A stretch of 64,000 nt of DNA from Saccharothrix deserti (GTDB lineage Bacteria > Actinomycetota > Actinomycetes > Mycobacteriales > Pseudonocardiaceae), in NCBI RefSeq assembly GCF_009769385.1, contig NZ_VKAB01000022.1, positions 124,001 through 188,000 on the forward strand, written 5' to 3'. Below are positions 7,714 through 51,266 of this stretch, one piece after another. Below the pieces are notes generated by a model. The model saw only the letters and a program-made list of their open reading frames with translations, was not told the origin of the DNA and ran no database searches. Positions within the stretch are counted from its first letter, which is position 1. Each line of letters begins with the position of its first letter. The position numbers and the translations under genes were made by a program.

Positions 7714-7719
7714 CACAGC

Positions 7720-7760: not shown

Positions 7761-7780
7761 GCTTCAGGCCGGCTACGGTG

Positions 7781-10935
<3,155 letters not shown>

Positions 10936-31056: not shown

Positions 31057-31170
31057 TCAGCCCTTCGTGACCCCCGCGGTGACGCCGTCGACGATCTGGC
31101 GCTGCAGGAACAGGTAGACGACGAGGACGGGTACCGCGACGACCCACTTCGTCAACCGGCGACCGGCCAT
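31057..31170 (-). pseudogene. Remnant of sugar ABC permease 2 (MalG type), internally deleted
   Basis: Only 37 codons. The start MAGRRLTKW resembles the normal N-terminus of a MalG-type permease and is followed directly by its C-terminal end VYLFLQRQIVDGVTAG. The intervening ~230 residues with five or six membrane helices and the EAA loop are missing. The start and stop contexts are intact: TGATG overlap with the upstream permease and 3 bp to the enolase gene. This indicates an in-frame internal deletion or an assembly collapse. Confidence 0.8.
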
Positions 31171-31601: not shown

Positions 31602-31604
31602 GGA

Positions 31605-34261: not shown

Positions 34262-34357
34262 GCCGCCGGCTCGCGATTCCGAACAGCCCCGCCCCTTGTT
34301 GTGCATGCACCGGTCGCCGTGCACCGGCGGCCGGACTCCGAGAACGGGAGGTCCACG

Positions 34358-35413
34358 TTGGGCGCACGACGGGTCACGTTGGCCGATGTGGCCAAGGTGG
34401 TCGGCGTCTCCCAAACCACCGTGTCCCTGGTCTTATCGGGGCGCGGCCGCGACCTGCGGATCTCCGAGGAGATGCAGCGCCGGGTCCGCGAAGCGGCGAC
34501 GGAGTTGGAATACCGCCGCAACCGGGTCTCGATGGGGCAACGCGGGGCGAGGACGCAGACGATCGCCTTCGTGTCCGATTCCGTCGCCAGTTCACGGCTC
34601 GCGGGCCACATGATCAAAGGTGCGCTGGGCGCGGCCCGCAGGCACGGCGTCACGCTGTTGTTCGGTGAGACCGAGGGCGATGCCGGCTTTCAGCGCACGT
34701 TGATCGAGACGATGCACGACTACCACGTCGACGGCATCATCCTCGCCTCGGTGCACACCAGGACGATCAGCATCCCGACCGAACTCGCCACCGGCCCCGC
34801 GGTGCTGCTCAACGTGCTGCCCCGGGAGCCGTCACCGCTCGTCTCCGTCCTGCCCGACGACGTCCAAGCCGGCCGCGCCGCCGCACGCGTGCTCCTCGAC
34901 GCCGGCCACGAGGAGGGCATCCACCTCATCGGCGTCGGCCCGTCCGGGGACGACGTCCCCCCGGGCCGGACCGCGGCGTTCGACCGGCTCTCCGGTATCC
35001 GCCAGGAGCTGGGTGAAGTGGGCGTCGAGGTGGAGAGCGGACACCCGTGCCGCTGGTGGCTGCCGAAGTACGGCTTCGAGGCGACCCGGGACCTGTTGGG
35101 CAAGGCACGTCCCCGCGCGTTGATCTGCCTCGACGACCGGCTCGCGCTCGGCGCGTACCAGGCGCTGCAGGACGCCGGCCTCACCGTGCCCGACGACGTC
35201 TCCGTGGTCTCCTTCGACGACCACCCCATCGCCTCCTGGCTGCGCCCCGGCCTCACCACCGTCGCCCTCCCGCACCACGACCTCGGTGCGAAGGCCGTCG
35301 ACCTCCTCTTCGCCGACGCCGATCACCCCGACCTGGACCGCGTGCACCGGGGCAGCACCCACCGCGTCCCGATGCCCGTCCGCCACCGGGATTCCGTGGC
35401 GCCGCCTCGATGA
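34358..35413 (+). CDS. LacI-family transcriptional repressor
   Basis: 351 residues. DNA-binding helix-turn-helix at the N-terminus (VTLADVAKVVGVSQTTVSLVLSGRG) with hinge helix region, followed by a periplasmic-binding-protein-like sugar sensor (ATRDLLGKARPRALICLDDRLALGAYQAL; VVSFDDHPIASWL). The TTG at 34358 is chosen because GGGAGG lies 6 bases upstream and the family start ARRVTLADVAK follows at once. It is convergent with the 11-gene ebo/ABC operon and stands behind a CebR-like box. Codon 26 is TTA (34433-34435), very rare in such genomes, which may place it under bldA-type developmental control. Target genes are not certain. Confidence 0.92.
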   Translation: MGARRVTLADVAKVVGVSQTTVSLVLSGRGRDLRISEEMQRRVREAATELEYRRNRVSMGQRGARTQTIAFVSDSVASSRLAGHMIKGALGAARRHGVTLLFGETEGDAGFQRTLIETMHDYHVDGIILASVHTRTISIPTELATGPAVLLNVLPREPSPLVSVLPDDVQAGRAAARVLLDAGHEEGIHLIGVGPSGDDVPPGRTAAFDRLSGIRQELGEVGVEVESGHPCRWWLPKYGFEATRDLLGKARPRALICLDDRLALGAYQALQDAGLTVPDDVSVVSFDDHPIASWLRPGLTTVALPHHDLGAKAVDLLFADADHPDLDRVHRGSTHRVPMPVRHRDSVAPPR

Positions 35414-35449: not shown

Positions 35450-36301
35450 TCACCCGTTGAACGGTGCGACGGCGTCGCGCAGGAACGTCAGCCCCCCGGT
35501 GGCGAGGGCGTCGGGCGAACTCGCCAACGGCCGCCAGATCGAAGCGGCCGTCGCGATGGTGGCGTTGTCCGGCGTGAACGACTCGATGCACAGCGAACCG
35601 CGGTAGCCGGCACCGGCCAGCGCCCGTAACAACGCGGGCCAGTCCTGGTGGTCGGCACCCGGCGTGCCGCGGTCGTTGGCGCACACCTGGACGTGCGCGA
35701 TCCGTGCGCCCGCGGCCCGGATGGCCGCGACCGGCGAGGATTCCTCGATGTTCATGTGGTAGGTGTCCAGCGCCAGGCCGCACCCCTCCTCGGGCAGTCC
35801 GTCCAGCGCCTCCAGGGCCTGCCCGACCGTGTTGAGCAGGCTGGTCTCATAGCGGTTCAACGGCTCCACCGCGATGCGGACGCCCTTCGACGCCGCGTGC
35901 TCGACCACCGGGGCGAGGTTCTCGCGCAGCTGGGCGTAGACCTCCGATCGGTTCCCGATCCGCCACGTGCGGCCCACCGCGCTGTACGCCGGACCTGCCG
36001 TCACGCCGCTGCCGACGATCGCCGCGACGTCCACCACGTGCCGCAGGTAGTCCTGGGTCTCGGCGACGGTGTCGGCCTCGACGAGGTTCCGGCCGGGCGC
36101 CATGGCGAGGCACACCGAGGCCTTCAGGTCCAGGGCCGCCAGCAGTTCGGCCGCCCGGTGCGGATCCCAGTCGCCCGGGTGCTCCACCGGCAGCTCGATG
36201 ACGTCGAAACCCCACTCGCGGATGCGCGGCGCGAGCCCCGCCAGCACGTCGTCGGTGAGCGGTGACGCCCAGACCCAGGTGCTGACGCCGATGTCCCACA
36301 T
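35450..36301 (-). CDS. Sugar phosphate isomerase/epimerase family protein (tagatose/psicose 3-epimerase-like)
   Basis: 283 residues, AP-endonuclease-2/xylose-isomerase-like TIM barrel. The metal-site regions match ketose 3-epimerases: Glu in VEPLNRYETSLLNT, Asp-x-x-His in GLALDTYHMNIEE, His in AHVQVCANDRGTPGADHQDW, and Glu in SLCIESFTPDN. It may epimerise a free sugar or act on a 3-keto-sugar, as some family members are glycoside 3-keto lyases. Last gene of the 11-gene operon, 12 bp after the EboF-like gene, and convergent with the LacI repressor. Confidence 0.85.
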   Translation of the reverse strand: MWDIGVSTWVWASPLTDDVLAGLAPRIREWGFDVIELPVEHPGDWDPHRAAELLAALDLKASVCLAMAPGRNLVEADTVAETQDYLRHVVDVAAIVGSGVTAGPAYSAVGRTWRIGNRSEVYAQLRENLAPVVEHAASKGVRIAVEPLNRYETSLLNTVGQALEALDGLPEEGCGLALDTYHMNIEESSPVAAIRAAGARIAHVQVCANDRGTPGADHQDWPALLRALAGAGYRGSLCIESFTPDNATIATAASIWRPLASSPDALATGGLTFLRDAVAPFNG

Positions 36302-36313
36302 GTGCCTGATTCC

Positions 36314-37699
36314 TCACTGTCGCGCGGGCGGACCGCTGATCCCTTGGAGTGCCAGCAGGAAGTCGCGAACGTCGGTGGCCGCCAGTCGCCCGTCGCGCTC
36401 GACCGATCGCGGCACGGCTGCCGGGTCGGAGCACAGCAGCACGGGGCCGTCGGCGGCCACGTCCGGGAGCCTGCCGTGCGTGCCGCGCACGCACGACGGG
36501 TCCAGCGGCACCACGTTCATCGCATACCGCAGGCCGAGCTTCTTGCGTGCCAGGTTCAACCCCGCCTTGACCTTGGCCAGCGGGTCGGCCGGGTCGAAGA
36601 ACAGTTCGGCGGGGTCGTAGCCGGGTTTGCGGTGGATGTCCACGCCGCGGGCGAAGTCGGGCGCACGGCTGTCGTCGGTCCAGTAGTAGTAGGTGAACCA
36701 GGCGTCCGGCTCGGCGACCGCGATCAGCTCGCCGGAACGCTCGTGGTCGAGCCCCACCTTCGCCTGTGCGTCCCGGTCGTGCACCACGTCCACCCCGGGC
36801 AGTTCGTCGAGCACGGCGCGGGTCCTGGCCAGGTCCGCGGGATCGGCGACGTAGACGTGCGCGACCTGGTGGTCGGCCACGGCGAACGCGCAGGACGTCC
36901 ACGGGTCCAGGTACTCCATGCCGGCCTGCGCGTAGACCTCCAGCAGCCCGGCCGCCCGCAACGCCCGGTTGACGTCGACCGGCCTGCGCGCTTCGGTGAT
37001 GCCGTACTCCGACAGCGCGACGATCGTCGCGTCGGAGTCCAGGAGCGGCTTGAGCGCCTTGTCCACGTCGGCCGCGGCTTTGATCGCCTGCGGTGACGAG
37101 GGCCCGAACCGCTGCAGGTCGTAGTCCAGGTGCGGCACGTAGACCAGCACCAGGTCGGGTCGGTGGTCGGCCAGGACCTTCAGGGCCGCGCCGACGATCC
37201 ACTCGCTGGAGGCCAGGGAGGCGGTGGGGCCCCAGTACTGGAACAGCGGGAACTCGCCCAGGGCCCCGGTGAGCCGGTCGTGCAGGTCGGGTGGGCGGAC
37301 GTAGCAGTCGGGCGACTTGCGGCCGTCCGCGTGGTAGATCGGTCTCGGGGTGATGGTGATGTCGGTGGTCGCGCCCATGGCGTACCACCAGCAGACGTTC
37401 GCGGCCGTGTAGCCGGGGTGGACGCGCCGCGCGGTCTCCCACAGCTTCTCACCCCCGACCAGCCGGTTGTGCTGGCGCCACAGGTGGATCTCGCCGAGGT
37501 CGCGGAAGTACCACCCGTTGCCCACGATGCCGTGCCGGGCGGGGGTGAGCCCGGTGAGCAGGGTCGCCTGGGCGCTGCACGTGACGGCGGGCAGCACCGT
37601 GCCCAGCTCGGCCTGCCAGCCCAGGCCCGCGAGGTTGGGCATGTGTTTGAGCAGCGCCGGTGTCATGCCGACCACGTCCACGACCACCAGCGGTTTCAC
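36314..37699 (-). CDS. Alkaline-phosphatase-superfamily protein (type I phosphodiesterase, EboF-like)
   Basis: 461 residues, nucleotide pyrophosphatase/phosphodiesterase family. N-terminal metal Asp in PLVVVDVVGMTPALL, nucleophile Thr region LPAVTCSAQATLLTGLTPARHGIVGNGW, and metal-binding residues around YVPHLDYDLQRFG and VALSEYGI. No signal peptide. In cyanobacterial ebo clusters the EboF product is of this family. It hydrolyses phosphodiesters or phosphomonoesters of an unknown metabolite. The GTG at 37699 overlaps the EboE stop by 4 nt; an alternative start ~12 codons earlier lacks support. Confidence 0.83.
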   Translation of the reverse strand: MKPLVVVDVVGMTPALLKHMPNLAGLGWQAELGTVLPAVTCSAQATLLTGLTPARHGIVGNGWYFRDLGEIHLWRQHNRLVGGEKLWETARRVHPGYTAANVCWWYAMGATTDITITPRPIYHADGRKSPDCYVRPPDLHDRLTGALGEFPLFQYWGPTASLASSEWIVGAALKVLADHRPDLVLVYVPHLDYDLQRFGPSSPQAIKAAADVDKALKPLLDSDATIVALSEYGITEARRPVDVNRALRAAGLLEVYAQAGMEYLDPWTSCAFAVADHQVAHVYVADPADLARTRAVLDELPGVDVVHDRDAQAKVGLDHERSGELIAVAEPDAWFTYYYWTDDSRAPDFARGVDIHRKPGYDPAELFFDPADPLAKVKAGLNLARKKLGLRYAMNVVPLDPSCVRGTHGRLPDVAADGPVLLCSDPAAVPRSVERDGRLAATDVRDFLLALQGISGPPARQ

Positions 37700-38775
37700 G
37701 CCGATACCCCCGTCCAGAGGTGGTCCCGGGCCCATCGCAGTTCCGCGGCGATCCCGTCGGTCAGGTCACCCGCGTCCGCGAGCACGCTCCACGTGTAGGT
37801 CTCCACCTCGACGTGGGTGTCGGGCTCCACCGCGGCCATGGCGGCCACCAGCACGTCCGTGGTCGAGCGCAGCGGTGCGGGCTGGACGTGCAGCGGCATG
37901 TGGAAGTGCACCCGCCACGGGTGCCGCGCGGGCAGGGTCGCGAACGCGTCCGGCAGGTCGTCCGCGGCCAGCACGCCGTCCGGCGTGTTCTCCCGGACCT
38001 GGTGCAGGTAGCGGGGTTCGGCATAGGCGGCGACGGCGCGCCGGCCTTCCTCACTGCCGGGTTCCGCGACCTCCAGGGCGGCGGACGCCTGCACCTTCAC
38101 GATCGACAGCCCGGCCGCGCGGATCGCCGCGACCGTTGCCACGGGGTCGGCGAACGACACCGCGAGGTGACACGTGTCCAGGCAGATCCCGACGTACTCG
38201 GGGTCGGCGCGACCGGCCAGCCACGCCACCGCGTCCGCGACGGTGTCCAGCACGCAGCCGGGTTCGGGTTCGACCGCGAGCCTGATCGGCCGGTCGCCAC
38301 TGTCCCGCAACCTGCGGGTCAGTTCGGTCAGCGCGGCCTCGGCGACCGCGTCGTCGCGGTCGCCCCACGGCTCACGCCACGCCAGCGGCAACGTCGAGAT
38401 GCTGCCGTACGAGGCGGAGTCGGGCATGAGGTCGGCGAGGACGGTGGCGCAGTCGGCGGTGTAGGCCAGGCGCCGCGGGTCGGCCCAGCTCGGCCGGTAC
38501 ACGGCGTGCTTGACCACCTCGCCGTGGAAGTCGCCGTACGGGAAGGCGTTGAGCGTGCTGACGGTCAGCCCCCGGGCGGCGAGTTCGGCCCGCAGCCCGC
38601 GCCGCGCGGACCTGTCCTCGGCCAGTCCGCGCGCGACCGACGCGGGCAGCCACAGCCCGAGCGGGAGGGTGTCGACACCGAGTCGCGACCGCACGCCGAC
38701 CGCGTGGCGGTCGAGTTGGTCGAGGATGCCGGGGAGGTCGTCGGCCGGGTGAACGTTCGTGCAGTACGCGATCAC
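37696..38775 (-). CDS. eboE: EboE-like protein (xylose-isomerase-like TIM barrel)
   Basis: 359 residues. It opens with VIAYCTNVHPADDLPGI and has VSTLNAFPYGDFHGEVVKHAVYRP, LAVEPEPGCVLDTVADAV, ICLDTCHLAVSFA and FHMPLHVQPAPL, which match the conserved blocks of the metabolite-traffic protein EboE of ebo clusters. In Nostoc punctiforme the ebo genes are required to move a scytonemin precursor to the periplasm; the reaction of EboE is unknown. The GTG at 38775 overlaps the EboB stop (GTGA), and its stop overlaps the EboF start. Family assignment by eye is strong; function is not known. Confidence 0.85.
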   Translation of the reverse strand: MIAYCTNVHPADDLPGILDQLDRHAVGVRSRLGVDTLPLGLWLPASVARGLAEDRSARRGLRAELAARGLTVSTLNAFPYGDFHGEVVKHAVYRPSWADPRRLAYTADCATVLADLMPDSASYGSISTLPLAWREPWGDRDDAVAEAALTELTRRLRDSGDRPIRLAVEPEPGCVLDTVADAVAWLAGRADPEYVGICLDTCHLAVSFADPVATVAAIRAAGLSIVKVQASAALEVAEPGSEEGRRAVAAYAEPRYLHQVRENTPDGVLAADDLPDAFATLPARHPWRVHFHMPLHVQPAPLRSTTDVLVAAMAAVEPDTHVEVETYTWSVLADAGDLTDGIAAELRWARDHLWTGVSA

Positions 38776-39629
38776 CGGCGTTCGCCCCTCAGGACCGAGT
38801 TCCCGGTGACGGTGTCGGTCGCGAGCGAGGTGACCGGATCGAGCAGGAGCCGTCCGCTCTGGCCGTAGAACTCCACCGGGTTGCTCCACAACACGGTGTC
38901 GACCTCGGACTCGTCGAACCCGGCTTCGAGCATCGCGAGACCGGTTGACCGGGTCTTCAGCGGGTCCGAACGACCCCAGTCCGCGGCGGAGTTCACCAGC
39001 ACCCGTCCCGTGCCGTACTCGGCGAGCAGCGCCACCATCCGCGCCTCGTCCATCTTGGTGTCCGGGTAGATGGAGAACCCCATCCAGCACCCGGAGTCCG
39101 CGACCGCGCGCACGGTCGTCTCGTTGAGGTGGTCGACCAGCACCCGTTCCGGCGGGATGCCCGACTCGCGCACCACGTCCAGGGTCCGCAGCGTGCCCTG
39201 CTGTTTGTCCCGGTGCGGGGTGTGCACGAGGACCGGGAGGTCGTGCCGGGCGGCCAGCTCCAGCTGGCGGGCGAACGCGTCGTCCTCCTCCGGCGTCATC
39301 GAGTCGTACCCGACCTCCCCGACCGCGACGACCCCGTCCTTGACCAGGTAGTGCGACAGGTGTTCCAGCACACCGGTGCACCGCGGGTCGTTGGCCTCCT
39401 TGGGGTTCAGCGCGATCGCGCAGTGGTGGGCGATGCCGAACTGCGCCGCGCGGAACCGCTCCCACCCGACCAGACCGTCGAAGTAGTCGAGGAACGACCC
39501 CACGTTCGTGCGCGGTTGCCCCAGCCAGAACGCCGGTTCCACCAGCGCTCGCACCCCGGCCGCGTGCATGGCCTCGTAGTCGTCGGTGGTGCGCGACGTC
39601 ATGTGGATGTGCGGGTCGAAGATGCGCAT
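38772..39629 (-). CDS. eboB: TatD-family metal-dependent hydrolase (EboB-like)
   Basis: 285 residues, amidohydrolase-type TIM barrel. Metal motif RIFDPHIHM at the N-terminus, Glu in VVAVGEVGYDSM, His in LPVLVHTPHRDKQQ, His in VLVDHLNETTVRAV, and Asp in LVNSAADWGRSDP. This matches the TatD-like EboB of ebo clusters, where the substrate is unknown. The ATG at 39629 shares one base with the stop of the upstream fusion gene; the C-terminus overlaps EboE by 4 nt. Cytoplasmic. Confidence 0.86.
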   Translation of the reverse strand: MRIFDPHIHMTSRTTDDYEAMHAAGVRALVEPAFWLGQPRTNVGSFLDYFDGLVGWERFRAAQFGIAHHCAIALNPKEANDPRCTGVLEHLSHYLVKDGVVAVGEVGYDSMTPEEDDAFARQLELAARHDLPVLVHTPHRDKQQGTLRTLDVVRESGIPPERVLVDHLNETTVRAVADSGCWMGFSIYPDTKMDEARMVALLAEYGTGRVLVNSAADWGRSDPLKTRSTGLAMLEAGFDESEVDTVLWSNPVEFYGQSGRLLLDPVTSLATDTVTGNSVLRGERR

Positions 39630-40957
39630 CAGGATGCCTTTCCGAGCAGTTCGAGGGCGTCGGCGGGCACCCGTCGGCCGGCTGCGCGGCGTTCGTCGGC
39701 GAACGCGGACACCATGCGCAGCAACTCGTCGTCCGTGCGCCGGTCGAGGTCGCTCACCACGGTCAACGGGATGCTCATGAACAGGCACTTCAGCACGCCG
39801 TGCCGCCACGCGTGCTGGTCGAGGTGATGCGCGGCGAAGGCGCCCATGGCCGCCGCGACCAGCCCGGTCTCGTTGCTGCGCAGGGCGTCCTTGACCAGTT
39901 CGACCCCGGTCTCCGGCACTCGACCGCCGATCTCGGCGAGCCCTCGCAGCACCCCGAGGCGTTCGGCCGACGTGCCGTGCCGGTAGAGCGCGGCGAGCCC
40001 TTCGGCCACGTCCTGGGAGGTGTCGGCGTACGCGACGAGCAGCCGCGTCCGGGCCTCGCGCACACCGAAGCGCACCGCTCGCCCCACGGCGGGGAACACG
40101 GTGTGGATGGAGGCGGGATCGGCTCGCAGCGCCTGTTCGGCCATGGCCAGCCAGCTCGCGGTGCGCAGCGCTTCGAACGCCCGCTTCGCCACCAGGGGTG
40201 CGGCGTGGCTGTGTCGGGGAAGCTCCACGGCCGCGACACCGGTGTAGCCGATGTCGGTCAGTGCCGCGAGGGTGTCGGGAAGGTCCAACTGCCCTTCTCC
40301 GAATTCCAGGTGTTCGTGGACGCCGGGCACCATGTCGTCCAGCTGCACGTTCATCAGCAGCCCGCCCGCCTCGCGGAGGCACGCCGCCGCGTCCTGCCAC
40401 TCCACCGCCACGCAGTGCCCCACGTCCAGGGTGATCCCGAGCAGTTCGGGATTCCCGAGCTCCTCCCGGAGCCGCAGGGCCTGGTCCAGTCGCTCCACCA
40501 CCATGCCGGGCTCCGGCTCCAGCGCGAGCGGCACGGCCGGCCCGCCGGTCAACACCGCGGCGACACCGGACTTCAGGTGCTCCCAGCTGTCCGAGGGCCC
40601 GACGCCCGACCAGAACGACACGCACTCCGCGCCGAGGTCGGCCGCTATCCGCTTGGCGCGCAGCAAGAAGTCGACCCGGACCTCCTGGTCTTCGCTCACC
40701 AGCGTCGGGTGGTGCTTGCGCAGCGGGTCGAGCAGGTAACGCGCCCCGGTCTCCACGACGACGCGCAGTCCCAGCGCCGACAGACGTGCCGCGAGCCGTT
40801 CGGTCCGCGCGCCGATGTCGTCGGCGAACGGGTCGAGGTGGTGGTGGTCGAGCGTGAGCGCGACCGCCGTGTAGCCGAGGTCGGCGATGACCGCGAGCGC
40901 GTCGTCCAAGCGGTGGTTGGCGAATCCGTTGGTGCCGTACCCGAGGTGGAACGTCAT
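39629..40957 (-). CDS. Fusion of sugar phosphate isomerase/epimerase with C-terminal EboA domain
   Basis: 442 residues. The N-terminal ~270 residues form a xylose-isomerase-like barrel (MTFHLGYGTNGFANHRLDDAL; ALEPEPGMVVERLDQAL; ITLDVGHCVAVEW; VNVQLDD-type region; AVELPRHSHAAP). The C-terminal ~165 residues resemble EboA: alpha-helical, with FAAHHLDQHAWRHGVLKCLFMSIPL and ADERRAAGRRVPADALELL. In most ebo clusters EboA is a separate gene. The fusion ties the isomerase to the pathway. The start overlaps the EboC stop by 4 nt (40954-40957). Confidence 0.83.
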   Translation of the reverse strand: MTFHLGYGTNGFANHRLDDALAVIADLGYTAVALTLDHHHLDPFADDIGARTERLAARLSALGLRVVVETGARYLLDPLRKHHPTLVSEDQEVRVDFLLRAKRIAADLGAECVSFWSGVGPSDSWEHLKSGVAAVLTGGPAVPLALEPEPGMVVERLDQALRLREELGNPELLGITLDVGHCVAVEWQDAAACLREAGGLLMNVQLDDMVPGVHEHLEFGEGQLDLPDTLAALTDIGYTGVAAVELPRHSHAAPLVAKRAFEALRTASWLAMAEQALRADPASIHTVFPAVGRAVRFGVREARTRLLVAYADTSQDVAEGLAALYRHGTSAERLGVLRGLAEIGGRVPETGVELVKDALRSNETGLVAAAMGAFAAHHLDQHAWRHGVLKCLFMSIPLTVVSDLDRRTDDELLRMVSAFADERRAAGRRVPADALELLGKAS

Positions 40958-41733
40958 GTCGGGCTCACCTTCCGGCTCAGCGCTCGGGCCAGCGGCAGGA
41001 GCAGCACGATCGCCGAACCGTGTCGGGCGAGCGCGGATTGCAGCAGCACCATGCCGTGGATGCCCGCCTTGGTCGCCGCGCGCACACGTGCGGCGGACGG
41101 GTCCTGCACCACGGCCCATTGCGCACGTCCGACCGAGGCGGCGTAGGCCACGGCCGCCGCGACGGCAGTGGGCCGACCGCCGGCGATCAAGGCGGTCAGG
41201 GCGGTCATCGCCGTCCCGCCGACAACGGCCTTGGCGACGGCAGGTGACGTGCCGTGCACCTCGCCGCGCGACAGCGCCGTCACGCCCAGCGTGTGCAGGG
41301 CCATCAGCGCGGCGGGTAGCGGGGCGCGGCCTCCCAGCAGCACGTCGAGCCCCCGGCACGCGGCCATCGCGAACGGACCGGCGGGGGTGTTCTTCAACAC
41401 CGTGTCGTAGCCCCACACCGCCACGGCGAGCGGCACCGCGTTGCGCCCGGCCGCCGCGGCGAGCCCGATGCCGGCGCCCGTCAAGCCGACGGCGGTGGCC
41501 AGGGCGGCGTTCGGGCTGATCCGCCCGGACGGGATGGGCCGCTCCGGCCGTTCCACGGCGTCCAGGTCGCGGTCCGCCCAGTCGTTCAGCGCCATGCCCG
41601 CCCAGTACAGCGCCACTGATGCCAGCGGCAGCAGCAGGCGCCTGCCCCGCAACGGAGCACCGGCGCCGACGAGGGTGTCGCCGAGCGCCGTCAACGCGGC
41701 CGGCGCCCGCACGAGTTCCAGGTACGCCTTCAT
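40954..41733 (-). CDS. eboC: UbiA-family prenyltransferase-like membrane protein (EboC-like)
   Basis: 259 residues, ~7-8 membrane helices. The first Asp motif is NDWADRDLDAVERPERPIP, the prenyl-diphosphate/Mg site of UbiA enzymes. The second region, YDTVLKNTPAGPFAMAACRGLDVLLG, matches EboC rather than ubiquinone/menaquinone enzymes, which have a second DxxxD. It could prenylate a pathway intermediate at the inner face of the membrane or act in its transfer across it. The ATG at 41733 overlaps the stop of the cyclase gene by 4 nt. Confidence 0.86.
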   Translation of the reverse strand: MKAYLELVRAPAALTALGDTLVGAGAPLRGRRLLLPLASVALYWAGMALNDWADRDLDAVERPERPIPSGRISPNAALATAVGLTGAGIGLAAAAGRNAVPLAVAVWGYDTVLKNTPAGPFAMAACRGLDVLLGGRAPLPAALMALHTLGVTALSRGEVHGTSPAVAKAVVGGTAMTALTALIAGGRPTAVAAAVAYAASVGRAQWAVVQDPSAARVRAATKAGIHGMVLLQSALARHGSAIVLLLPLARALSRKVSPT

Positions 41734-42875
41734 CCCAGTCCTCTCGCCCACTCGTACAGCTCGCGGGTCTGATCGGCGAAGCGGTGTTCTTCGCTGCCCA
41801 GCGGGTCCTTGAAGAAGAACGCCAACGCTCCCAACGCGCCCTTCTCCCCCGCCGCGTGGGCCGCGGCGACGAGCCGGGTGAGGTCGAGCACCAGCGGTGC
41901 CGCCAGTGCCGAGTCCAGGCCGGTCCAGGTGAACTGCAGGCTCATCCGCGCACCGAGGAACCCCTCGAACGACACGTGGTCCCAGGCGGTCTTCGTCTCG
42001 CCGAGGTCCGGCACGTTGTCGATGTGCAGGGGTGCGGTCACCTCACTGCCGAGCAGGGCCGCGAGCCCGTTCGCCTTGGACCTCAGCTTGCTGTCGGCGT
42101 GCGCCGGGTCCTCCAGCGTCGCGCCGTCCCCGCCGCCGAGCAGGTTGGTGCCCGCCCACGACCGGACCCTCAGTGCCCGTGCGGTGAACATCGGCGCGAG
42201 CACCGTGCGCAGCAGGGTCTCACCGGTCTTGCCGTCCCGCCCGGCGTAGGGCAGGCCCTCCCGTCGGGCGAGTTCGTCCAACGCGGGCAGGGCGATCCCG
42301 GTCGAGGGTGTGAACTCGACGAACGGGCAGCCTGCCGTGAGCGCCGCGTAGGCGGCAAGCGAACTGGGTGGCAGCACGTTCCGGTCGGGATCGGCCAACG
42401 CGCGCTCCAACGCGGCCAGCTCGGCGTGCTCGGGCAGCGGCGGCACGGGCGGTTCGGTGGACGACACGTTGACCACGACGACGCGTGCGAGCCGGTGCCG
42501 TTCGCGGAACGCGGTGATGTCGGCGACCAAGCGCCGGGCGACGTCGGCCTGGGCGCCGTCGAAGCTCGCCGTCCGGATCTCGCCGTCCACCTCGCGCAGA
42601 CCGGGCGTGATGCACTCCAGCAGGTGATGCGGCAGCACACCGCCCTGGGCCAGCAGCTCGGCCCGTTTCTCCAGGGGTGCCTGCGCGATGTCGTGCCCGC
42701 CGACGACGAGGTCCGACCACCCGGGCAGCGTGACACCGGCCAGTTCGGGTCGTTCGGTCACACATCCGGTGGCGGGTGTCAGGCCCGCGCGCAGGGCCAG
42801 CAGCCCGCTCACGGCGGTCGTCGCGACGGAGCCACGTGCGCCGATCAGCCAGAGCCCGGTGGACTCATCCGCCAT
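41730..42875 (-). CDS. Inositol-3-phosphate synthase-like NAD-dependent cyclase
   Basis: 381 residues with the myo-inositol-1-phosphate synthase fold. N-terminal Rossmann motif LWLIGARGSVATTAVSGL, VVVNVSSTEP, FTPSTGIALPAL, the active-site helix region GKTGETLLRTVLAPMFTARAL and the conserved WAGTNLLGGGDGATLEDP. It would convert a hexose phosphate to a cyclitol phosphate. The position in an ebo operon lacking the dehydroquinate-synthase-like eboD suggests it supplies the cyclitol step instead. A strong GGAGG lies 4 bp before the ATG. The gap to the binding-protein gene is 47 bp, the largest within the operon. Confidence 0.85.
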   Translation of the reverse strand: MADESTGLWLIGARGSVATTAVSGLLALRAGLTPATGCVTERPELAGVTLPGWSDLVVGGHDIAQAPLEKRAELLAQGGVLPHHLLECITPGLREVDGEIRTASFDGAQADVARRLVADITAFRERHRLARVVVVNVSSTEPPVPPLPEHAELAALERALADPDRNVLPPSSLAAYAALTAGCPFVEFTPSTGIALPALDELARREGLPYAGRDGKTGETLLRTVLAPMFTARALRVRSWAGTNLLGGGDGATLEDPAHADSKLRSKANGLAALLGSEVTAPLHIDNVPDLGETKTAWDHVSFEGFLGARMSLQFTWTGLDSALAAPLVLDLTRLVAAAHAAGEKGALGALAFFFKDPLGSEEHRFADQTRELYEWARGLG

Positions 42876-42922
42876 TCGTCCTCCCTCCGATCTGGGGTGC
42901 CGCGCGGTCAGCCCGGCCACGG

Positions 42923-44116
42923 CTACTTCCAGGGACCGGGGTAGCCCGGCATCGACTCGCAGCCGCACATGGCGTAGTGCAGCGGTGGCATGTCCTGCTT
43001 GATGAAGTCCTGGACGTCGTCCTGGGTGACCTTGGGCTGGGGCAGCACCCATTCCTCGGGCACCTGCTTGCCTTCCAGGATCCTGAGCGCGGCGATGACC
43101 GGCGTCCGCCATTGGAAGGTGGGGTAGGTGGGCGCGACCGCCGTCATCTTCTCCGTGACCCACGTCCTCAGGAAGTCCTGCTGGTCCTCGCCGACGAACG
43201 GCGGGATCGGCACGCCCGCGTCCTGGAACGCCTCGACCGCGGCGACGGAGGTCGCGCCGGCGTCCATCCACACGCCGTCGATCCGGCCTTCGCGCTGGAT
43301 GTAGTCGTTGACGATGGTCTTGGTCTTGGCCGCGTCGCCGTCGGTGAACTCGACACCGACGATGTCCAGCCCGCTGCCGGCGAAGATCTCGTTCGCCGCG
43401 GCCCACCGCTGCTCCAGCACGTCCACGCCGGGCAGGATGCGCAACGCCAGCACCTTGCCGCCCGCCTTCACCTTCTCCTTCAGGAACTCCGCGCCGTCCG
43501 CGCCGAACGCGAACCCGCCGATCGGGTGAATGAAGGTGACCGGGCAGGTGGAGTTGACCCCGCGGTCGAACACGATCACCGGCACACCGGTCTGGCATGC
43601 GGCCTCGACTGCGGGCGTCAGCGTGGCGGTGGTGTTCGGCGACACGATCAGCGCGCTGCACCCTTGCGTGGCGAAGGACTGGATGTCGCTGATCTGCTTG
43701 TCGTCCTTGGCTTCCGCGTCGAGCACGGTGAACTTGGTGATCTCCGGGTGCAGCTTCACCTCCTCCTGCATGGTCTTGAACCCGACCTGCCGCCACGGGT
43801 TGTCGACCGAGGCGTTGGAGAAGCACAGGTGGTGGTTGCCGCCGGGCTTGGCGTACTCGGTGGTGGCGACCATCTTCGGGTCGAGCATCTGCTCCCACGG
43901 CTTGGGCTCCCCGCCCCCGCCCCCGTCCTCGAACCCGACCGGCTTCGCGGTGCGGAACTCCAACTGGCGCTCGTACTCGGCTTGGTCGAAGAACTCGGAC
44001 TTCGCCGCCTGGTCGGACGTAGTCGTGGCGCCTGGGCCCGCAGCGGGCAGGTCGCTCGAACAACCGGCTGTCGCCAGGGCGCCCGCGAGGACGACTGCGA
44101 ACCACTTCCTGCGCAT
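42923..44116 (-). CDS. Ribose/inositol-type ABC importer, substrate-binding lipoprotein
   Basis: 397 residues, lipobox ALATAGC (Cys ~19). A ~80-residue extra N-terminal segment (with a GGGGG turn) precedes a Peripla_BP_4 domain: HLCFSNASVDNPWRQVGFKTMQEEV, SFATQGCSALIVSPNTTATLTPAVEAACQTGVPVIVFDRGV, LRILPGVDVLEQRWAAANEIF and IDGVWMDAGATSVAAVEAF. It binds a monosaccharide or cyclitol outside the membrane for the two permeases upstream in the operon. The C-terminus contains a CGCES Cys pair. AAGGAG lies 9 bases from the ATG. Confidence 0.9.
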   Translation of the reverse strand: MRRKWFAVVLAGALATAGCSSDLPAAGPGATTTSDQAAKSEFFDQAEYERQLEFRTAKPVGFEDGGGGGEPKPWEQMLDPKMVATTEYAKPGGNHHLCFSNASVDNPWRQVGFKTMQEEVKLHPEITKFTVLDAEAKDDKQISDIQSFATQGCSALIVSPNTTATLTPAVEAACQTGVPVIVFDRGVNSTCPVTFIHPIGGFAFGADGAEFLKEKVKAGGKVLALRILPGVDVLEQRWAAANEIFAGSGLDIVGVEFTDGDAAKTKTIVNDYIQREGRIDGVWMDAGATSVAAVEAFQDAGVPIPPFVGEDQQDFLRTWVTEKMTAVAPTYPTFQWRTPVIAALRILEGKQVPEEWVLPQPKVTQDDVQDFIKQDMPPLHYAMCGCESMPGYPGPWK

Positions 44117-44145
44117 GGTGTTGCTCCTTGGTTCTTCGGCGGCGT

Positions 44146-45135
44146 TCAAGAGGTCACCGGTTCGGGTTCGCGAGGCTGAAGCACTCGTCGCAAGCCGGTG
44201 CCGCGCGCGGCGTAGGCGACCGCCGCGATGATGATCAGGCCCTGCACGGCGGATTCGAGCGCACCCGAGACACCAAGCAGGTTCAACAGCGAGAACAGGG
44301 CCTCCAACGACAGTGCTCCCGCTGCGGCGGCGACCACCGAGCCGCGACCACCCCCGAGCAGGACACCGCCGAGCACGACCGCGGTGATGGCCCGGAACTC
44401 CAAGCCGTTGCCGACCTGTGCGGACACCCCGGCGAACCCGGCGAGCAGGATGGCGGCGAGCGCGGCGAGCAGTCCCGAGAGCACGAACGCGATCAGCCGC
44501 AGCCGGTCGACGCGGCCGCCGGCCAGCCGGACGGCCGTGTCGTTGTCGCCCACCGCGAGCAGCGTCCGCCCGGTGCCGCCGCGCATGAACAGCGCCGCGG
44601 CGACCAACACCACCAGCAGGATGAGCACCGACCACGGCACTTGGCCCAGGACTGGCACGTCGATCCCGCCCCGGCCGAACGTCCGGAACGACGGTGACAG
44701 GGCGCCGCGCGGCGCGCCACCGGTCCACAGGAACACCGCGCCGTCGAGCACCAGCAGCACCCCGAGCGTCACGATGAACGACGGCACCAGCAGCTTCGTC
44801 GTGATCAGGCCGTTGACCAGCCCGACGAGGACGCCGAAGCCGAGCAGCAGCGCGATCACCCAGGACGTGTTCGCGTCGTCCCCGTCGACCAGTCGTGCGG
44901 CGATCACGACCTCCGCGGTCACCAGCGACCCCACCGACAGGTCGTAGCCACCCGACACGACCACGAAGTACTGGCCGATCGCCAGGATCATCAACGGCGC
45001 GGCGCGCTTGAGCAGCGCCAGGTACCCGGCCGGCTCGGCGTACGCGGGACCGGCGAAGGCCAGGGCCACCAGCAGGACCACGAGCACGACCAGCACCGGC
45101 GCGGTCCCGTCGGCCAGGCGGGGTCGCCACGTCAC
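44146..45135 (-). CDS. Ribose/inositol-type ABC importer permease (RbsC family), second copy
   Basis: 329 residues, ~8-10 membrane helices, BPD_transp_2 family. Typical motifs: GQYFVVVSGGYDLSVGSLV, LVGLVNGLITTKLLVPSFIVTLGVLLVLDG and the cytoplasmic loop AITAVVLGGVLLGGGRGSVV. The GTG at 45135 follows GGAGG and overlaps the previous permease stop by 4 nt. It presumably forms a heterodimer with the neighbouring permease. Confidence 0.92.
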   Translation of the reverse strand: MTWRPRLADGTAPVLVVLVVLLVALAFAGPAYAEPAGYLALLKRAAPLMILAIGQYFVVVSGGYDLSVGSLVTAEVVIAARLVDGDDANTSWVIALLLGFGVLVGLVNGLITTKLLVPSFIVTLGVLLVLDGAVFLWTGGAPRGALSPSFRTFGRGGIDVPVLGQVPWSVLILLVVLVAAALFMRGGTGRTLLAVGDNDTAVRLAGGRVDRLRLIAFVLSGLLAALAAILLAGFAGVSAQVGNGLEFRAITAVVLGGVLLGGGRGSVVAAAAGALSLEALFSLLNLLGVSGALESAVQGLIIIAAVAYAARGTGLRRVLQPREPEPVTS

Positions 45136-46139
45136 GTCGACCTCCGGGACAACTGGCGGCGGGCGTACAGCGCCACCGCGACGATGAGCACGATGCCCCG
45201 CACCACGTCCTTGAAGAACGGGTCGACCGCGAGGTCGTCGAAGACGGTGTCGAGGGTGGCCAGGATCAGCACGCCACCGACCGTGCCGACCACGCCGCCG
45301 CGGCCACCGGCGAGTGCCGCGCCGCCGAGCACCACGGCCGCGATGGACTCCAGGTCGTACCCCGCGTCGGTGCCGACGTACGGCGCGCCCGACCCGAGCC
45401 TTGCCGCCAGGAACACACCGGCCAGTCCCGCCGCGACCGAGCACAGCACGTGCGCGGTGACGATCGTCCGGCCGGTCCGCACACCGGACAGCCGGGCGAC
45501 GTCGACGTCCCCGCCGACCGCGTACATGTGGTAACCGCCGCGGGTCCGCCGCAGGTACCACCACGCGCCCGCGGCGATGAGCAGCATCAGCAGCGCCGCC
45601 ACCGGGATCGGCCCGATCCGGTCGTACCCGAGGTGCTGGAACGAACGGGGCACGCTGCCCGCCGGCCCGGTGTAGTTGTGTTCGAGGTACCCGCGCAAGA
45701 CCAACGCGACCCCGAGCGTGGCGATGAACGCGTTGGCCCTCAACACCGTGATCACGAGTCCGTTGACCAGGCCGACCACCGCCGCGACCGCCAGCGCCAG
45801 CAGCACCCCCGGCACGATCATCGTCCCGCTGCCCGCCATGGTCTCGGCCGCCACGAGCGAGCTCAGCCCGACCAGGTAGGCCACGGACAGGTCCAGCGAA
45901 CCGGTGATGATCACGATGGTCTGCCCGACCGCGACAAGTCCCAGCACGGTGCTGCGGGTGAGGATGTTGAGGATGCCGCCCTGGTCGAGCAGCACACCGC
46001 CGTCGAGCGCCACCAGGACGCTGCCGACCACGAGCAGCACGGCCAACGCGACGTACACGGTCACGGTGGGGGTGAGCGCGAACTTCCGCGGTCGCGTCGC
46101 GCTCGCGTTCCGCAGGGTCCGTTCCCGCACGACGCTCAC
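45132..46139 (-). CDS. Ribose/inositol-type ABC importer permease (RbsC family), first copy
   Basis: 335 residues, BPD_transp_2 family. Motifs: [54 protein letters not shown] and [24 protein letters not shown]. The GTG start overlaps the ATPase stop by 4 nt and its stop overlaps the second permease, so expression is coupled. Confidence 0.92.
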
Positions 46140-47614
46140 GCGGCGTCACCGATCCCGTGTCCAGTGGCCAGCCTTATCACGGCTTCCTCCGAGGCGCCGG
46201 CGGGCAGTTCGCCCGCCACGGCGCCTTCGTGCATCACGAGGATCCGGTCGCTCATGCCGATCAACTCGGGCAGCTCCGAGGAGATCATCAGGATGGCCAC
46301 TCCCCCACCCGCGAGGTCGCGCAGCAGCCGGTAGACGGCCTGCTTCGCGCCCACGTCGATGCCGCGCGTCGGCTCGTCCACGATCAACACCCGCGGCTCG
46401 ACCGCGAGCCACTTGCCGAGCACGACCTTCTGCTGGTTGCCGCCCGACAGGTAACGCACTTCCTGGTGCGGCCCGCGTGCGGTGACCGTGACCGACTCCA
46501 GCAGCTCGGTGAGGTCGGCCGCGCGCCGTGCCGCCGCTCCCCGTAACGCCGCCCGCCGCACGAGCAGGACGTTGTCCTTCACCGACTGCCGGAGCGCCAG
46601 ACCTTCGTCCTTGCGATCCTCGGTGACGTAGCCGATGCCGGCGCGGACAGCGGTCCGTGGCCGGTCGACGCGGACCGGCACGCCGTCCACCGCCACGGAG
46701 CCCGTGGCGAACGGCTCCACACCCCAGATCGCCCGCGCCGTCGCGGATCTCCCGGAACCCTGCAACCCGGCCAGGCCGACGATCTCACCGGCACGGACCT
46801 CGAAGGTCAGGTCCCGCACTCGGCCGTTCCCCGCCGCGCTCAACGCCAGCCGCACGTCACCCGCGGCGTTGCCGCGCTCCGGGTACAGGGCTTCGAGCGG
46901 ACGGCCGACCATCTGCCGCACGAGCTGGTCGGAGGTGATGTCGCCGGTCGCCGAGGTCGCCACGAACGCGCCGTCCTTCAGCACCGTGATCCGCCGGCTC
47001 AGGTCGAACACCTCGCGCATCCGGTGGGAGACGTAGAGGATCGCCATCCCCCGCTCCCGCAGCCGACCCACCAGCGCGTACAGCAGCTCGACCTCGTGAT
47101 CGGCCAACGCGGCGGTGGGCTCGTCCATGGCGAGCACCCCGGCGTCGGCGGACAGCGCCTTGACGATCTCCACCACCTGCCGCTGCGCGACGGAGAGCCG
47201 CGCGACGGCGGTCGCCGGGTCGATGGTCCCGACACCCAGCCAGTCCAGCAGCCGTCGCGTCTCGGCCTCCATCGACCGGCGGTCGACCTGACCGCGTCGC
47301 ACGGGTTCACGCCCCAGGAACACGTTCTCGGCGACCGACCGGTGTTCGAGGAGGTTGAACTCCTGGTGGATGATCGAGATGCCTGCCGCGTGCGCGTCGC
47401 GCGGGGTGCCGAACGAGACTTCCTTCCCGTCCAGCAGTATCCGGCCGGAGTCCGGTCTGTGCACGCCGGCCAGCACCTTCAGCAGGGTCGACTTGCCGGC
47501 GCCGTTCTCGCCGACCAGTGCGTGCACCTCGCCCGCCCGCAGTTCGAGGTCCACGCCGCGCAGCACGGTGACGCCGAGGAAGCTCTTGGTGATGCCCTCC
47601 AGCCGCACGTTCAC
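46136..47614 (-). CDS. Ribose/inositol-type ABC importer, double ATP-binding protein (RbsA/MglA family)
   Basis: 492 residues with two tandem nucleotide-binding domains. The first has Walker [16 protein letters not shown], signature [15 protein letters not shown] and Walker [12 protein letters not shown]. The second has the degenerate Walker [15 protein letters not shown], signature [16 protein letters not shown] and Walker [15 protein letters not shown]. This asymmetry is normal for the family. It energises import by the two permeases encoded next. First gene of the operon; the GTG at 47614 lies 7 bases from GGAGG. The promoter should lie in the 442-bp region upstream. Confidence 0.93.
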
Positions 47615-49443: not shown

Positions 49444-51141
49444 TCAAGGCAGGGTCCACCGCTGGTTGGTGCCGCCGTGGCAGCTCCAGATGATCAACTG
49501 CGTGCCGTCCGCGGAACTACCACCATTGGCGTCCAGGCACTTGCCCGACTGCGGGTTCACCAACGAACCGTTGGCACCGGCAGTCCAGTTCTGACCACCG
49601 CTGCCATTGCACGTCCACAACCGAACCGCGGCGGCGTTGGCCGTACCCGCCACCTCCATGCACTTGTCGAGCGCGCGCAACGTGGACCCGTTGACCGTCC
49701 AACGCTGGTTCGCACCGCTGTTGCACGTCCACAACTGCAGCTTCGCACCGTCGACCGAGCTGCCACCGTTGACGTCCACGCACTTACCGGAGCCGCTGGT
49801 GATCGGCCCGGTGCGCGGAACGGTGCCGCCCAGTTCCTTGATGCGGATGTTGCGGAACGACACGTCGTCGCCGGTGCCGTGGTTCTGGATGCCGATGTGC
49901 CCGGACACCAGCGACCGGGCCGGGTCGGTGTTGGTGAAGTCGTTGACCTGCACGCCGTTGAGGAACACCTGCAGGCGCTCGCCTTCGACCAGCAGCTCGA
50001 AGGTGTTCCACTCGCCGGGCGGGTTGAGCGCGGCGTCACGGGCGGCCTGGTCGGCGCCCTTGAACCCGTAGATCGCGCCGGTGGTCTTGTCCGCGGTGTC
50101 GGTGGCGTCGATCTGCACCTCGTAGCCGTTGTTCATCGCGGAGTTCGGGTCGGTGCTGGGCGGGAAGCCGACGAAGACCCCGGAGTTGTCGTCGCCGGGC
50201 ATCCGCCAGTCCAGCTTCAGCGAGTACGAGCGGTACTCGCGCGCGCTGTTCCAGAACAGGCCCTGGCCGCCGAACGAGGTCAGCGTGCCGTCGCTGTTGG
50301 TGAAGCCGCCCGGTCCGGCCTGTGACCAGCCGGTGGTGGAGCCGTTGTACAGCGCGGTGTAGCCGTTCTCCGGCCGGCAGTCGGCATCGGTCCGGTTGGC
50401 CGCGTAGCGGATGCCCCCGAGGATCATGGAGCGGAACCCGGCCTCGGCGTAGGTCGACTGGGTGTGGCCGCTGCCGGTGTAGAAGGAGCGTCCGCTTTGG
50501 ACGGTCTTGCACCAGGTGTGCGGGTGGTCGGCACCCATCGAGCCGCCGGAGTAGGTCGACTCGTCCAACGTGGCCAGGACCCGTGCCGTGGACCGGACGT
50601 TGCCGCGGAAGTTGTACCACTCGTCGGTCCGGGTCCACGCCGGACTCAGGTGCGCGGTGGCCGCGTGCGCCCGGTTCTCCACTCGGACCGTCGCCTGCTG
50701 GATGGCCGGGTGCGAGGTGAAGTACGTGCCGACCAGCTCGCCGTAGAACGGCCAGTCGTACTCGGTGTCGGACGCCGAGTGGATGCCGACGTACCCGCCC
50801 CCGCCCCGGATGTAGGACTCGAACGCGGTCTGCTGCGTGGTGTTGAGCACGTCCCCGGTGGTGTTGAGGAACACCACGGTCTCGTACCGGGCCAGGTTGG
50901 TGGTGGTGAACTGGTTCGAGTCCTCGGTGGTGGTCACCGTGAAGCTGTTGGCCGCGCCCAGGTCCCGGATCAGCTGGATGCCGGCCGGGATCGAGTCGTG
51001 CCGGAAGCCCGCGGTCTTGGAGAACACCAGCACGTCGTACGGCGCGTCGGCCGCGACGGCCGGTGGGCTGGAGTTGAGCGCGGCGACGGTCAAGGCGGCG
51101 GCAACCACGCCGATCGCGCGTCGGGTGAGGGAGTTTCTCAT
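49444..51141 (-). CDS. Secreted ThuA-DUF1080-ricin lectin protein
   Basis: 565 residues: signal peptide (~1-30), ThuA-like domain (~34-245; DVLVFSKTAGFRHDSIPAGI, GGGGYVGIHSASDTEYDW, GADHPHTWCKTVQSGRSFYTGSGH), DUF1080/3-keto-disaccharide hydrolase-like jelly roll (~258-435; LYNGSTTGW, SLKLDWRMPGDDNSGVFVGFP, NNGYEVQID) and a ricin-type trefoil (~440-565). ThuA and DUF1080 proteins have been linked to metabolism of 3-keto-glycosides. Being secreted and next to a secreted sugar dehydrogenase, it may process oxidised glycosides outside the cell; this is inference. The lectin DNA is nearly identical to that of the next gene. Confidence 0.88.
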   Translation of the reverse strand: MRNSLTRRAIGVVAAALTVAALNSSPPAVAADAPYDVLVFSKTAGFRHDSIPAGIQLIRDLGAANSFTVTTTEDSNQFTTTNLARYETVVFLNTTGDVLNTTQQTAFESYIRGGGGYVGIHSASDTEYDWPFYGELVGTYFTSHPAIQQATVRVENRAHAATAHLSPAWTRTDEWYNFRGNVRSTARVLATLDESTYSGGSMGADHPHTWCKTVQSGRSFYTGSGHTQSTYAEAGFRSMILGGIRYAANRTDADCRPENGYTALYNGSTTGWSQAGPGGFTNSDGTLTSFGGQGLFWNSAREYRSYSLKLDWRMPGDDNSGVFVGFPPSTDPNSAMNNGYEVQIDATDTADKTTGAIYGFKGADQAARDAALNPPGEWNTFELLVEGERLQVFLNGVQVNDFTNTDPARSLVSGHIGIQNHGTGDDVSFRNIRIKELGGTVPRTGPITSGSGKCVDVNGGSSVDGAKLQLWTCNSGANQRWTVNGSTLRALDKCMEVAGTANAAAVRLWTCNGSGGQNWTAGANGSLVNPQSGKCLDANGGSSADGTQLIIWSCHGGTNQRWTLP

Positions 51142-51163
51142 CTCTTAGCCTCCTGGGAGGAGG

Positions 51164-51206
51164 GCGATGTGGCATCGCTCCTGTCGTGGGAGCGATGCCA
51201 CATCGC
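51164..51206 (-). terminator. Long perfect hairpin between ThuA-DUF1080 and dehydrogenase genes
   Basis: Perfect 18-bp inverted repeat GCGATGTGGCATCGCTCC (51164-51181) / 51189-51206 with a 7-nt loop. It is downstream of the dehydrogenase stop (minus strand) and 23 bp upstream of the ThuA-DUF1080 start, so it can terminate the former or act as an attenuator. Confidence 0.8.
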
Positions 51207-51226
51207 GGTCCTTGCCGGTTTCATCC

Positions 51227-51266
51227 GGGCAGGGTTCGTCAGGGCAGGGTTCGTCAGGGCAGGGTC
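51227..51266. repeat. 15-bp tandem repeat spanning a stop codon
   Basis: GGGCAGGGTTCGTCA at 51227-51241 and 51242-51256, with a third partial copy (GGGCAGGGT) to about 51266. The second copy contains the stop codon of the dehydrogenase gene, so the end of the gene, including its stop, has been duplicated downstream. Confidence 0.8.

Follow-up and report, generated by a model that had tools for sequence, protein, structure and literature searches.

A MIPS-bearing, EboD-less ebo-type gene cluster adjoining a CUT2-type sugar importer in Saccharothrix deserti

We analyzed a stretch of 64,000 nucleotides from Saccharothrix deserti (contig NZ_VKAB01000022.1, positions 124,001 to 188,000; hereafter the window, whose own positions are used below), in which eleven consecutive minus-strand open reading frames spanning 35450-47614 encode a sugar importer, a cyclase of the myo-inositol-1-phosphate synthase (MIPS) type and relatives of the Ebo proteins. 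Our tentative reading, held with somewhat less than even confidence, is that the operon represents an actinobacterial ebo pathway that has no EboD and yields a small prenylated membrane compound, either a cyclitol or derived from one, and that it is tied to the scavenging of oxidized sugars. This reading draws on gene content and gene order, conserved lysines of the cyclase, the aspartate motif of the EboC-type protein, TatD and TIM-barrel ligands, the co-occurrence of cyclase and EboC, and the importer and sugar-oxidation genes nearby. The eleven genes are as follows.

46136..47614, minus strand: RbsA-type ATPase of a CUT2 sugar importer (two Pfam ABC_tran stretches; best NCBIfam match AraG/RbsA-like, under its cut-off; RbsA tree)
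45132..46139, minus strand: importer permease 1 (open reading frame, 4-nucleotide overlaps, 98% identical orthologue in Saccharothrix locus L143)
44146..45135, minus strand: importer permease 2, BPD_transp_2 (Pfam, 117 bits)
42923..44116, minus strand: lipoprotein solute-binding protein, Peripla_BP_4 (Pfam)
41730..42875, minus strand: MIPS-like sugar-phosphate cyclase, read as a putative stand-in for EboD (Pfam; 1u1i match; four lysines)
40954..41733, minus strand: EboC-like UbiA-superfamily prenyltransferase of the SCO3242 family (NCBIfam)
39629..40957, minus strand: xylose-isomerase-like TIM barrel fused to a C-terminal EboA domain (NCBIfam, Pfam)
38772..39629, minus strand: EboB-like metallo-hydrolase of the TatD clan (Pfam TatD_DNase)
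37696..38775, minus strand: EboE TIM-barrel enzyme (NCBIfam equivalog)
36314..37699, minus strand: EboF-like protein of the alkaline-phosphatase superfamily with an altered metal site (Pfam Phosphodiest; fold)
35450..36301, minus strand: ketose 3-epimerase-like protein, accessory (124 bits to D-tagatose 3-epimerase 7dz5)

As a first-pass annotation of the window had described, most of these genes overlap by 1-4 nucleotides (7 of 10 junctions); the remaining junctions are gaps of 29 nucleotides (second permease to solute-binding protein), 47 (solute-binding protein to cyclase) and 12 (EboF to epimerase). The same eleven-gene order, at 94-98% identity, occurs in one Saccharothrix genome (L143), and among relatives across the phylum the order MIPS-C-A-B-E-F is kept wherever the genes are present, so the arrangement is not due to chance. 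Hidden Markov model scans against NCBIfam and Pfam, covering ten of the eleven proteins (all but the permease at 45132-46139), identified both MIPS domains, UbiA, TatD_DNase, Phosphodiest, ABC_tran, BPD_transp_2 and Peripla_BP_4, with AP_endonuc_2 in three proteins.

The cyclase carries both Pfam MIPS domains (177 and 104 bits) and matches the myo-inositol-1-phosphate synthase of A. fulgidus (1u1i) over nearly its full length with 231 bits. Four of its lysines (K263, K267, K295 and K356), which we take to be the catalytic lysines of the archaeal enzyme, are kept in 85 of 85 aligned sequences, and PDB entries 3qvw and 3qvx show lysine-to-alanine changes at two of these positions. The score against the mycothiol-pathway model TIGR03450 is 21.6 bits, with a cut-off of 638. 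We surveyed 396 evenly drawn genomes of the phylum, S. deserti among them, and found ebo-type MIPS (at least 339 bits, a line chosen post hoc after the gap down to the next match at 229 bits was visible) and the SCO3242-type (EboC-type) prenyltransferase over its cut-off in the identical 25 genomes, S. deserti included (Fisher p 4e-40; this and the binomial p-value below ignore shared ancestry). One of the 25 (G335) carries a full MIPS copy on another contig. Twenty-eight survey loci (L004-L031) were examined, 26 originating from EboC-type matches over the cut-off and two from weaker ones (L030 and L031). The complete set of MIPS, C, A, B, E and F was detected in 25 of these loci, one of which (L016) has no more than a MIPS fragment. 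MIPS is missing from L019 and L030; L031 carries EboD and lacks MIPS, and no EboA was detected in it. In L030 (G244:C21), where no MIPS was detected, the EboC match is divided over two frames with one TGA inside.

Further loci were collected as the best 80 of at least 588 confirmed relatives, and because these were ranked by EboB similarity among the matches listed, the set leans to close relatives; among those matches, the best-matching loci are from Lentzea and Saccharothrix. Sixteen loci with short flanks were set aside from full-flank counts, leaving 64. MIPS is found in 63 of the 80 loci and in 55 of the 64 with full flanks. The MIPS-like cyclase is thereby nearly, though not strictly, obligatory for the ebo core, and it is a steadier partner of that core than the importer. 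Bit thresholds were set by the analyst and differ between the 80-locus set and the survey loci; genes in relatives were called with the analyst's own codon-usage script.

No EboD was identified among the eleven genes in the NCBIfam and Pfam scans, and an EboD query found none in the 80-locus set at 80 bits or more. Across the 396 genomes this query gave a close match in one (G301), whose ebo cluster is without MIPS, and matches of 141-149 bits in four others including S. deserti, where the best match (149 bits, 37%) lies on another contig. Since the sole cluster seen with EboD is without MIPS, we read the MIPS-like cyclase as a putative non-orthologous replacement of EboD. If both of these unrelated cyclases can serve one EboB/C/E/F core, that core probably needs a cyclitol. 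The chemistry of the MIPS family is well known; its presence in an ebo core gives independent support for a cyclitol step and points to glucose-6-phosphate and inositol phosphates as candidate substrates. The EboD-bearing cluster L031 (6130-12862) consists of EboD, a 100-residue gene without a Pfam match, B, E, C and F, with an FMN-dehydrogenase-like gene directly after EboF.

The UbiA-type protein passes the SCO3242_trans model (NF045897; 305.3 bits, cut-off 260) and falls short of the EboC equivalog model (129.8 bits, cut-off 250). The latter cut-off discriminates poorly, because the UbiA protein of the EboD-bearing cluster L031 misses it as well (97.6 bits). N50, D51, D54 and D58 are kept in 93 of 93 aligned sequences. 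A prenyl-diphosphate synthase gene lies within the flanks of seven of the 80 loci at 90 bits or more, and of ten if three weaker matches of 76-80 bits are included, compared with about 0.8 per 80 expected from the gene density of the S. deserti genome (5 genes in 10.83 Mb), from which alone all expected neighbor numbers here derive; such genes also occur in survey loci L013, L014, L022 and L026.

The EboA domain, at residues 300-437 of the fusion protein, scores 143.8 bits (cut-off 50), and the whole-family EboA model scores 51.8 of 320 because the protein is a fusion, residues 22-266 matching AP_endonuc_2. EboA is fused to a TIM barrel in some relatives and is a separate gene in others. Its domain is modeled as twelve helices (predicted local distance difference test score, pLDDT, 97.6), and since none of its 341 PDB matches at E up to 10 reached 0.001 or better, it can be described just as all-helical and repeat-like. 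EboE passes its NCBIfam equivalog cut-off (396.4 bits, cut-off 250), and its TIM-barrel ligands E169, D200, H203, Q229 and E325 are kept in 105 of 105 aligned sequences. EboB matches Pfam TatD_DNase (PF01026; 50.9 bits), reaches no NCBIfam cut-off, and keeps the TatD ligands H7, H9, E105, H136, H167 and D217 in 107-108 of 108 aligned sequences. EboF matches Pfam Phosphodiest (PF01663; 201 bits), likewise with no NCBIfam cut-off reached, and its model (pLDDT 88.3) is nearest to phosphonoacetate hydrolase 3szy (E 1.5e-19), a phosphonoacetate-hydrolase/NPP fold; T40 and D192 are present in 105, H408 in 103 and D8 in 85 of 105 aligned sequences. Because the conservation alignments were confined to proteins within a fixed range of length and score, they lack fragments and some fusions. 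The ebo-type identity proposed in the first-pass annotation is supported, with EboE and the EboA domain over their cut-offs; scores under the Ebo cut-offs, which it had named as a refutation, occur in part, the UbiA-type protein falling under the EboC line. The ketose-epimerase-like enzyme that it listed is present in the operon, but occurs within the flanks of just 4 of the 80 loci and farther upstream in two Lentzea.

The importer has the tandem ATPase, BPD_transp_2 permease and Peripla_BP_4 binding protein of the CUT2 type. The five best solved relatives of the binding protein score 63-65 bits; their annotations name ribose, sugar or putative ATP-binding cassette (ABC) binders, and none is decisive for the ligand. 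The linkage of importer and ebo genes recurs in other genomes, contrary to the lack of linkage that the first-pass annotation had named as a refutation: 32 of the 64 full-flank loci have an RbsA-type ATPase or CUT2 binding protein no farther than about 10 kb from EboB, 34 of all 80 have one beside the core, in 20 of 34 genera, and RbsA is present in 17 of the 27 survey loci L004-L030. We therefore rejected the idea that the pairing is unique to the window. For 12 of those 17 loci the upstream flanks had been extended because a binding protein, mostly with a partial permease, already showed, so that finding RbsA in 12 of 12 is a completion check and not an independent test. RbsA alone lies within 10 kb in 20 of the 64 full-flank loci, versus about 1.2 expected from the ten RbsA genes of the S. 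deserti genome (binomial p 4e-19). Flanks reach about 10 kb upstream of EboB (80-locus set) or EboC (survey loci), and importers farther away are missed. In a FastTree phylogeny with midpoint rooting, the RbsA type of the window (Saccharothrix, Lentzea, Nonomuraea and Phytoactinopolyspora) clusters, at a support of 0.94, with non-ebo paralogues encoded by the same genome, separately from the Streptomyces/Amycolatopsis type. Because the tree separates these types, importers were recruited to the ebo core at least twice, perhaps three times.

Beyond the coordinates given by the first-pass annotation, the neighborhood reaches on to genes for sugar-oxidation proteins, and a regulator lies at the other end.

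34301..35413, plus strand: LacI-family regulator, convergent with the operon end (Pfam LacI and Peripla_BP_3; 98% identical in Saccharothrix L143)
49444..51141, minus strand: ThuA, 3-keto-disaccharide hydrolase and ricin lectin protein, context (Pfam)
51254..54073, minus strand: GSDH, PKD, CBM6 and ricin lectin protein, context (Pfam)

PF06439 (DUF1080) has been linked to 3-keto-disaccharide hydrolysis (PMC9007349). In the 64 full-flank loci, Gfo/Idh genes accompany the core in 22, GSDH in 31, ThuA in 28 and a PF01261 enzyme (TIM2) in 27. A palindrome scan of six intergenic stretches gave no convincing LacI operator before RbsA.

We infer the reactions of the pathway, its product, the importer ligand and the feeding of the pathway by the imported sugar as follows. 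The MIPS-like enzyme would close a sugar phosphate to an inositol-type cyclitol phosphate, replacing the unrelated cyclase EboD. The TIM-barrel enzymes (EboE and the EboA-fused one), together with the TatD-type EboB, would then modify the ring, and the UbiA-type EboC would attach it to a prenyl chain. The RbsA-type importer, the epimerase and the LacI regulator would couple the pathway to uptake of a sugar, which the GSDH and ThuA/3-keto-disaccharide-hydrolase proteins probably oxidize or release outside the cell. A more specific version, which we regard as quite unlikely, is that the core makes a dedicated prenylated inositol- or inosose-type lipid whose role in the membrane is to carry, or to be the redox partner of, compounds handled extracellularly, with the MIPS-like enzyme and EboD feeding one conserved prenylation core. 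If true, the lipid would serve secreted sugar oxidation and uptake in actinobacteria and the scytonemin precursor in cyanobacteria. Although the ebo genes occur widely and Nostoc requires them for scytonemin, the portions of PMC5133447, PMC6282210 and PMC9235831 consulted do not identify their product; the recurrent link to a CUT2 importer and sugar oxidation suggests conditions for a product search in culturable Streptomyces, Amycolatopsis and Saccharothrix.

Several observations weigh against a prenylated cyclitol made by a MIPS-dependent core with its own importer. MIPS is absent beside EboC in 9 of the 64 full-flank loci (two Lentzea and seven Streptomyces). For nine Streptomyces-type MIPS-less loci (L019 and L073 among them), a whole-genome search found an ebo-type MIPS elsewhere in the genome in six and none in three (L060, L073 and L087); it is because of such genomes that the cyclase is not strictly obligatory. 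The EboD-replacement reading relies on one EboD-bearing cluster and on published accounts of EboD in other phyla. EboF, which the first-pass annotation had named as a homologue and which does belong to the Phosphodiest family, is without most of the metal ligands of its phosphodiesterase relatives: it has Q196 for a histidine and E231-Y232 for an aspartate-histidine pair in 105 of 105 sequences, at positions whose metal-ligand roles in the relatives we assume, in an alignment to structural relatives that covers only T40, D192, Q196, E231 and Y232. The two-metal ligand set of the phosphodiesterases of this superfamily (NPP/PhnA) is thus not found in EboF, and because most ligands are replaced, a role as an ordinary two-metal phosphatase in a dephosphorylation step is doubtful; its chemistry possibly differs from that of the phosphodiesterases. 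Several of the prenyl-synthase genes sit on the opposite strand, and five of the seven stronger matches are from Arthrobacter, Pseudarthrobacter and Zhihengliuella. Ubi-297 and its homologues, relatives of EboC, farnesylated quinolines and not phenols or catechols, and the 14 acceptors tested were all aromatic (PMC9235831). On the importer side, 32 of the 64 full-flank loci showed none in their flanks; a second ebo copy in S. deserti (L003, G000:C12:1-20000; core 3711-10512), with the order MIPS-C-A-B-E-F and an EboF 86% identical to that of the window, has no adjoining importer; and a module of ROK, RbsA, permease, solute-binding protein, Gfo/Idh and TIM-barrel genes is present at two sites of that genome that have no ebo genes (L149 and L151).

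The importer as a fixed part of the system was rejected, since L003 is without one and different RbsA clades are attached in different lineages; the description of an operon with its own importer thus survives as a recurring linkage but not as a constant feature. The flanks without an importer in 32 of the 64 full-flank loci and beside L003, together with the importer module found without ebo genes, favor an explanation that we consider unlikely while giving it some weight, namely that the ebo core is independent and the importer and sugar-oxidation genes merely travel with it in carbohydrate-use islands of soil actinobacteria. The window abounds in polysaccharide-active and ricin-lectin genes, and a window-type locus of Saccharothrix sp. 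S26 (L144, G406:C19) shows GSDH, ThuA, MIPS and a TIM-EboA-like gene, with the importer, C, B, E, F and the epimerase not detected at the locus. This explanation is opposed by a linkage that far exceeds the density expectation, by the recruitment of separate importer clades, and by the retention of the same operon at 94-98% identity in another Saccharothrix; the junctions between importer and core are gaps of 29 and 47 nucleotides, not overlaps.

The sugar-oxidation neighbors bear on a second alternative, rather improbable in our estimate, in which the whole operon is catabolic, after the manner of levoglucosan loci, and serves to take up and degrade an uncommon anhydrosugar or cyclitol glycoside, on which the MIPS-like enzyme and EboC would act. 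In the families familiar to us, UbiA-type prenyltransferases and cyclases of this kind serve biosynthesis, and no Gfo/Idh or sugar kinase gene was identified among the eleven operon genes (NCBIfam and Pfam). The alternative gains from the ThuA/3-keto-disaccharide hydrolase and GSDH genes close by and from one Gfo/Idh neighbor of the Streptomyces type (L007:16711-17928), for which levoglucosan dehydrogenase is the best NCBIfam match at 363.4 bits, under the LgdA cut-off of 650. Levoglucosan loci contain ABC importers and ROK or LacI regulators alongside Gfo/Idh and PF01261 enzymes (PMC10066097).

Many UbiA enzymes prenylate aromatics. A third alternative, which we judge improbable, is that the cyclitol is aromatized first by inosose-dehydratase-like TIM barrels, after which EboC prenylates a polyhydroxylated aromatic ring to give a quinone-like lipid. 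PF01261 includes IolE-type dehydratases, the TIM-EboA protein of L003 matches myo_inos_iolE weakly (19.7 bits), and the aromatic acceptors of Ubi-297 fit such a step; its lack of product on phenols or catechols does not (PMC9235831), and no oxidase family was matched among the ten operon proteins scanned.

Finally, the Ebo proteins may together be a transport system for metabolites and carry a polyhydroxylated compound through the membrane. Such a role has been proposed for the scytonemin precursor in Nostoc, where ebo deletion gives a scytoneminless phenotype (PMC6282210); the NCBI name of EboE, 'metabolite traffic protein', is in keeping with this. We regard this explanation as very improbable here. 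Scytonemin is restricted to cyanobacteria according to PMC5133447, and the conserved enzyme active sites of EboB, EboE and MIPS argue for chemistry. The suggestion in the first-pass annotation that the product is possibly exported is without support, because none of the eleven genes encodes an exporter.

Other features of the loci and the window were noted. In two Lentzea loci (L141 and L142) the MIPS-RbsA interval holds GSDH, ThuA, ROK, epimerase, a ThuA-GSDH fusion and a polyprenyl-synthase gene (PF00348 confirmed in L141), so the cluster spans more than 30 kb. These are the two Lentzea without MIPS beside EboC, and the idea that import replaces cyclization there was dropped because a whole-genome search and a reading of the interval located the MIPS gene on the strand of RbsA, about 17-18 kb upstream of it. 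Another GSDH gene of S. deserti (L149, G000:C11:312030-314243) has as its neighbor a CUT2 importer, accompanied by Gfo/Idh and a PF01261 enzyme but no ebo genes. Upstream of the L003 core are MarR, P450 and catalase genes. Between the ThuA and GSDH proteins of the window (49444-54073), the ricin-lectin modules share 88% identity over 127 residues, which suggests recent module copying or gene conversion. A second ThuA, GSDH, PKD and CBM6 protein (60763-63999, plus strand) reaches the window end. At 31170-32873, an SBP_bac_1 solute-binding protein followed by just a 130-residue open frame, with a GntR gene opposite, is possibly a decayed sugar ABC operon.

Compared with known systems, the operon shares an EboA domain and EboB-, EboC-, EboE- and EboF-type genes in one operon with eboABCDEF of cyanobacteria, Bacteroidetes and eustigmatophyte plastids (PMC5133447, PMC6282210), but differs in having no EboD, a MIPS-like cyclase, a TIM-fused EboA, a UbiA protein of the SCO3242 family and an attached sugar importer. 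The EDB cluster of Pseudomonas fluorescens NZ17 (PMC6282210) is a full ebo cluster with ABC permease genes reported just upstream, which are described as capsular-polysaccharide systems and not as CUT2 importers. Ubi-297 of marine Flavobacteria is an EboC homologue (PMC9235831), also reported beside ebo genes in Saccharomonospora; the main text of that paper does not contain the words 'inositol', 'cyclitol' or 'ABC transporter', and in that of PMC5133447 'inositol' and 'ABC transporter' are absent. The CUT2 (RbsABC) importers of levoglucosan loci (PMC10066097) have the ATPase, permease and Peripla_BP_4 protein in common with ours, and relatives of the operon add Gfo/Idh, PF01261 and ROK genes; the window operon itself, unlike levoglucosan loci, is without Gfo/Idh. 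The cyclase resembles archaeal MIPS (1u1i) in its near full-length match and four lysines, but is set apart by its TIGR03450 score far below the cut-off and its co-occurrence with the EboC type. The UbiA-type protein passes the curated cut-off of the SCO3242 family (NF045897), for which the literature searched for SCO3242/SCO3243 gave transcriptome studies and no chemistry. The TIM-EboA fusion in Actinobacteria and the prenylated-cyclitol idea are already published, and the need for a cyclitol was proposed from EboD alone (PMC5133447); among the titles and abstracts listed in a literature search, with subscription journals mostly outside its coverage, none describes MIPS or a sugar importer with ebo genes. 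Since EboD is missing and the UbiA-type protein falls below the EboC model, we do not class the cluster as a canonical ebo operon, and it is best called an EboD-less, MIPS-bearing ebo variant.

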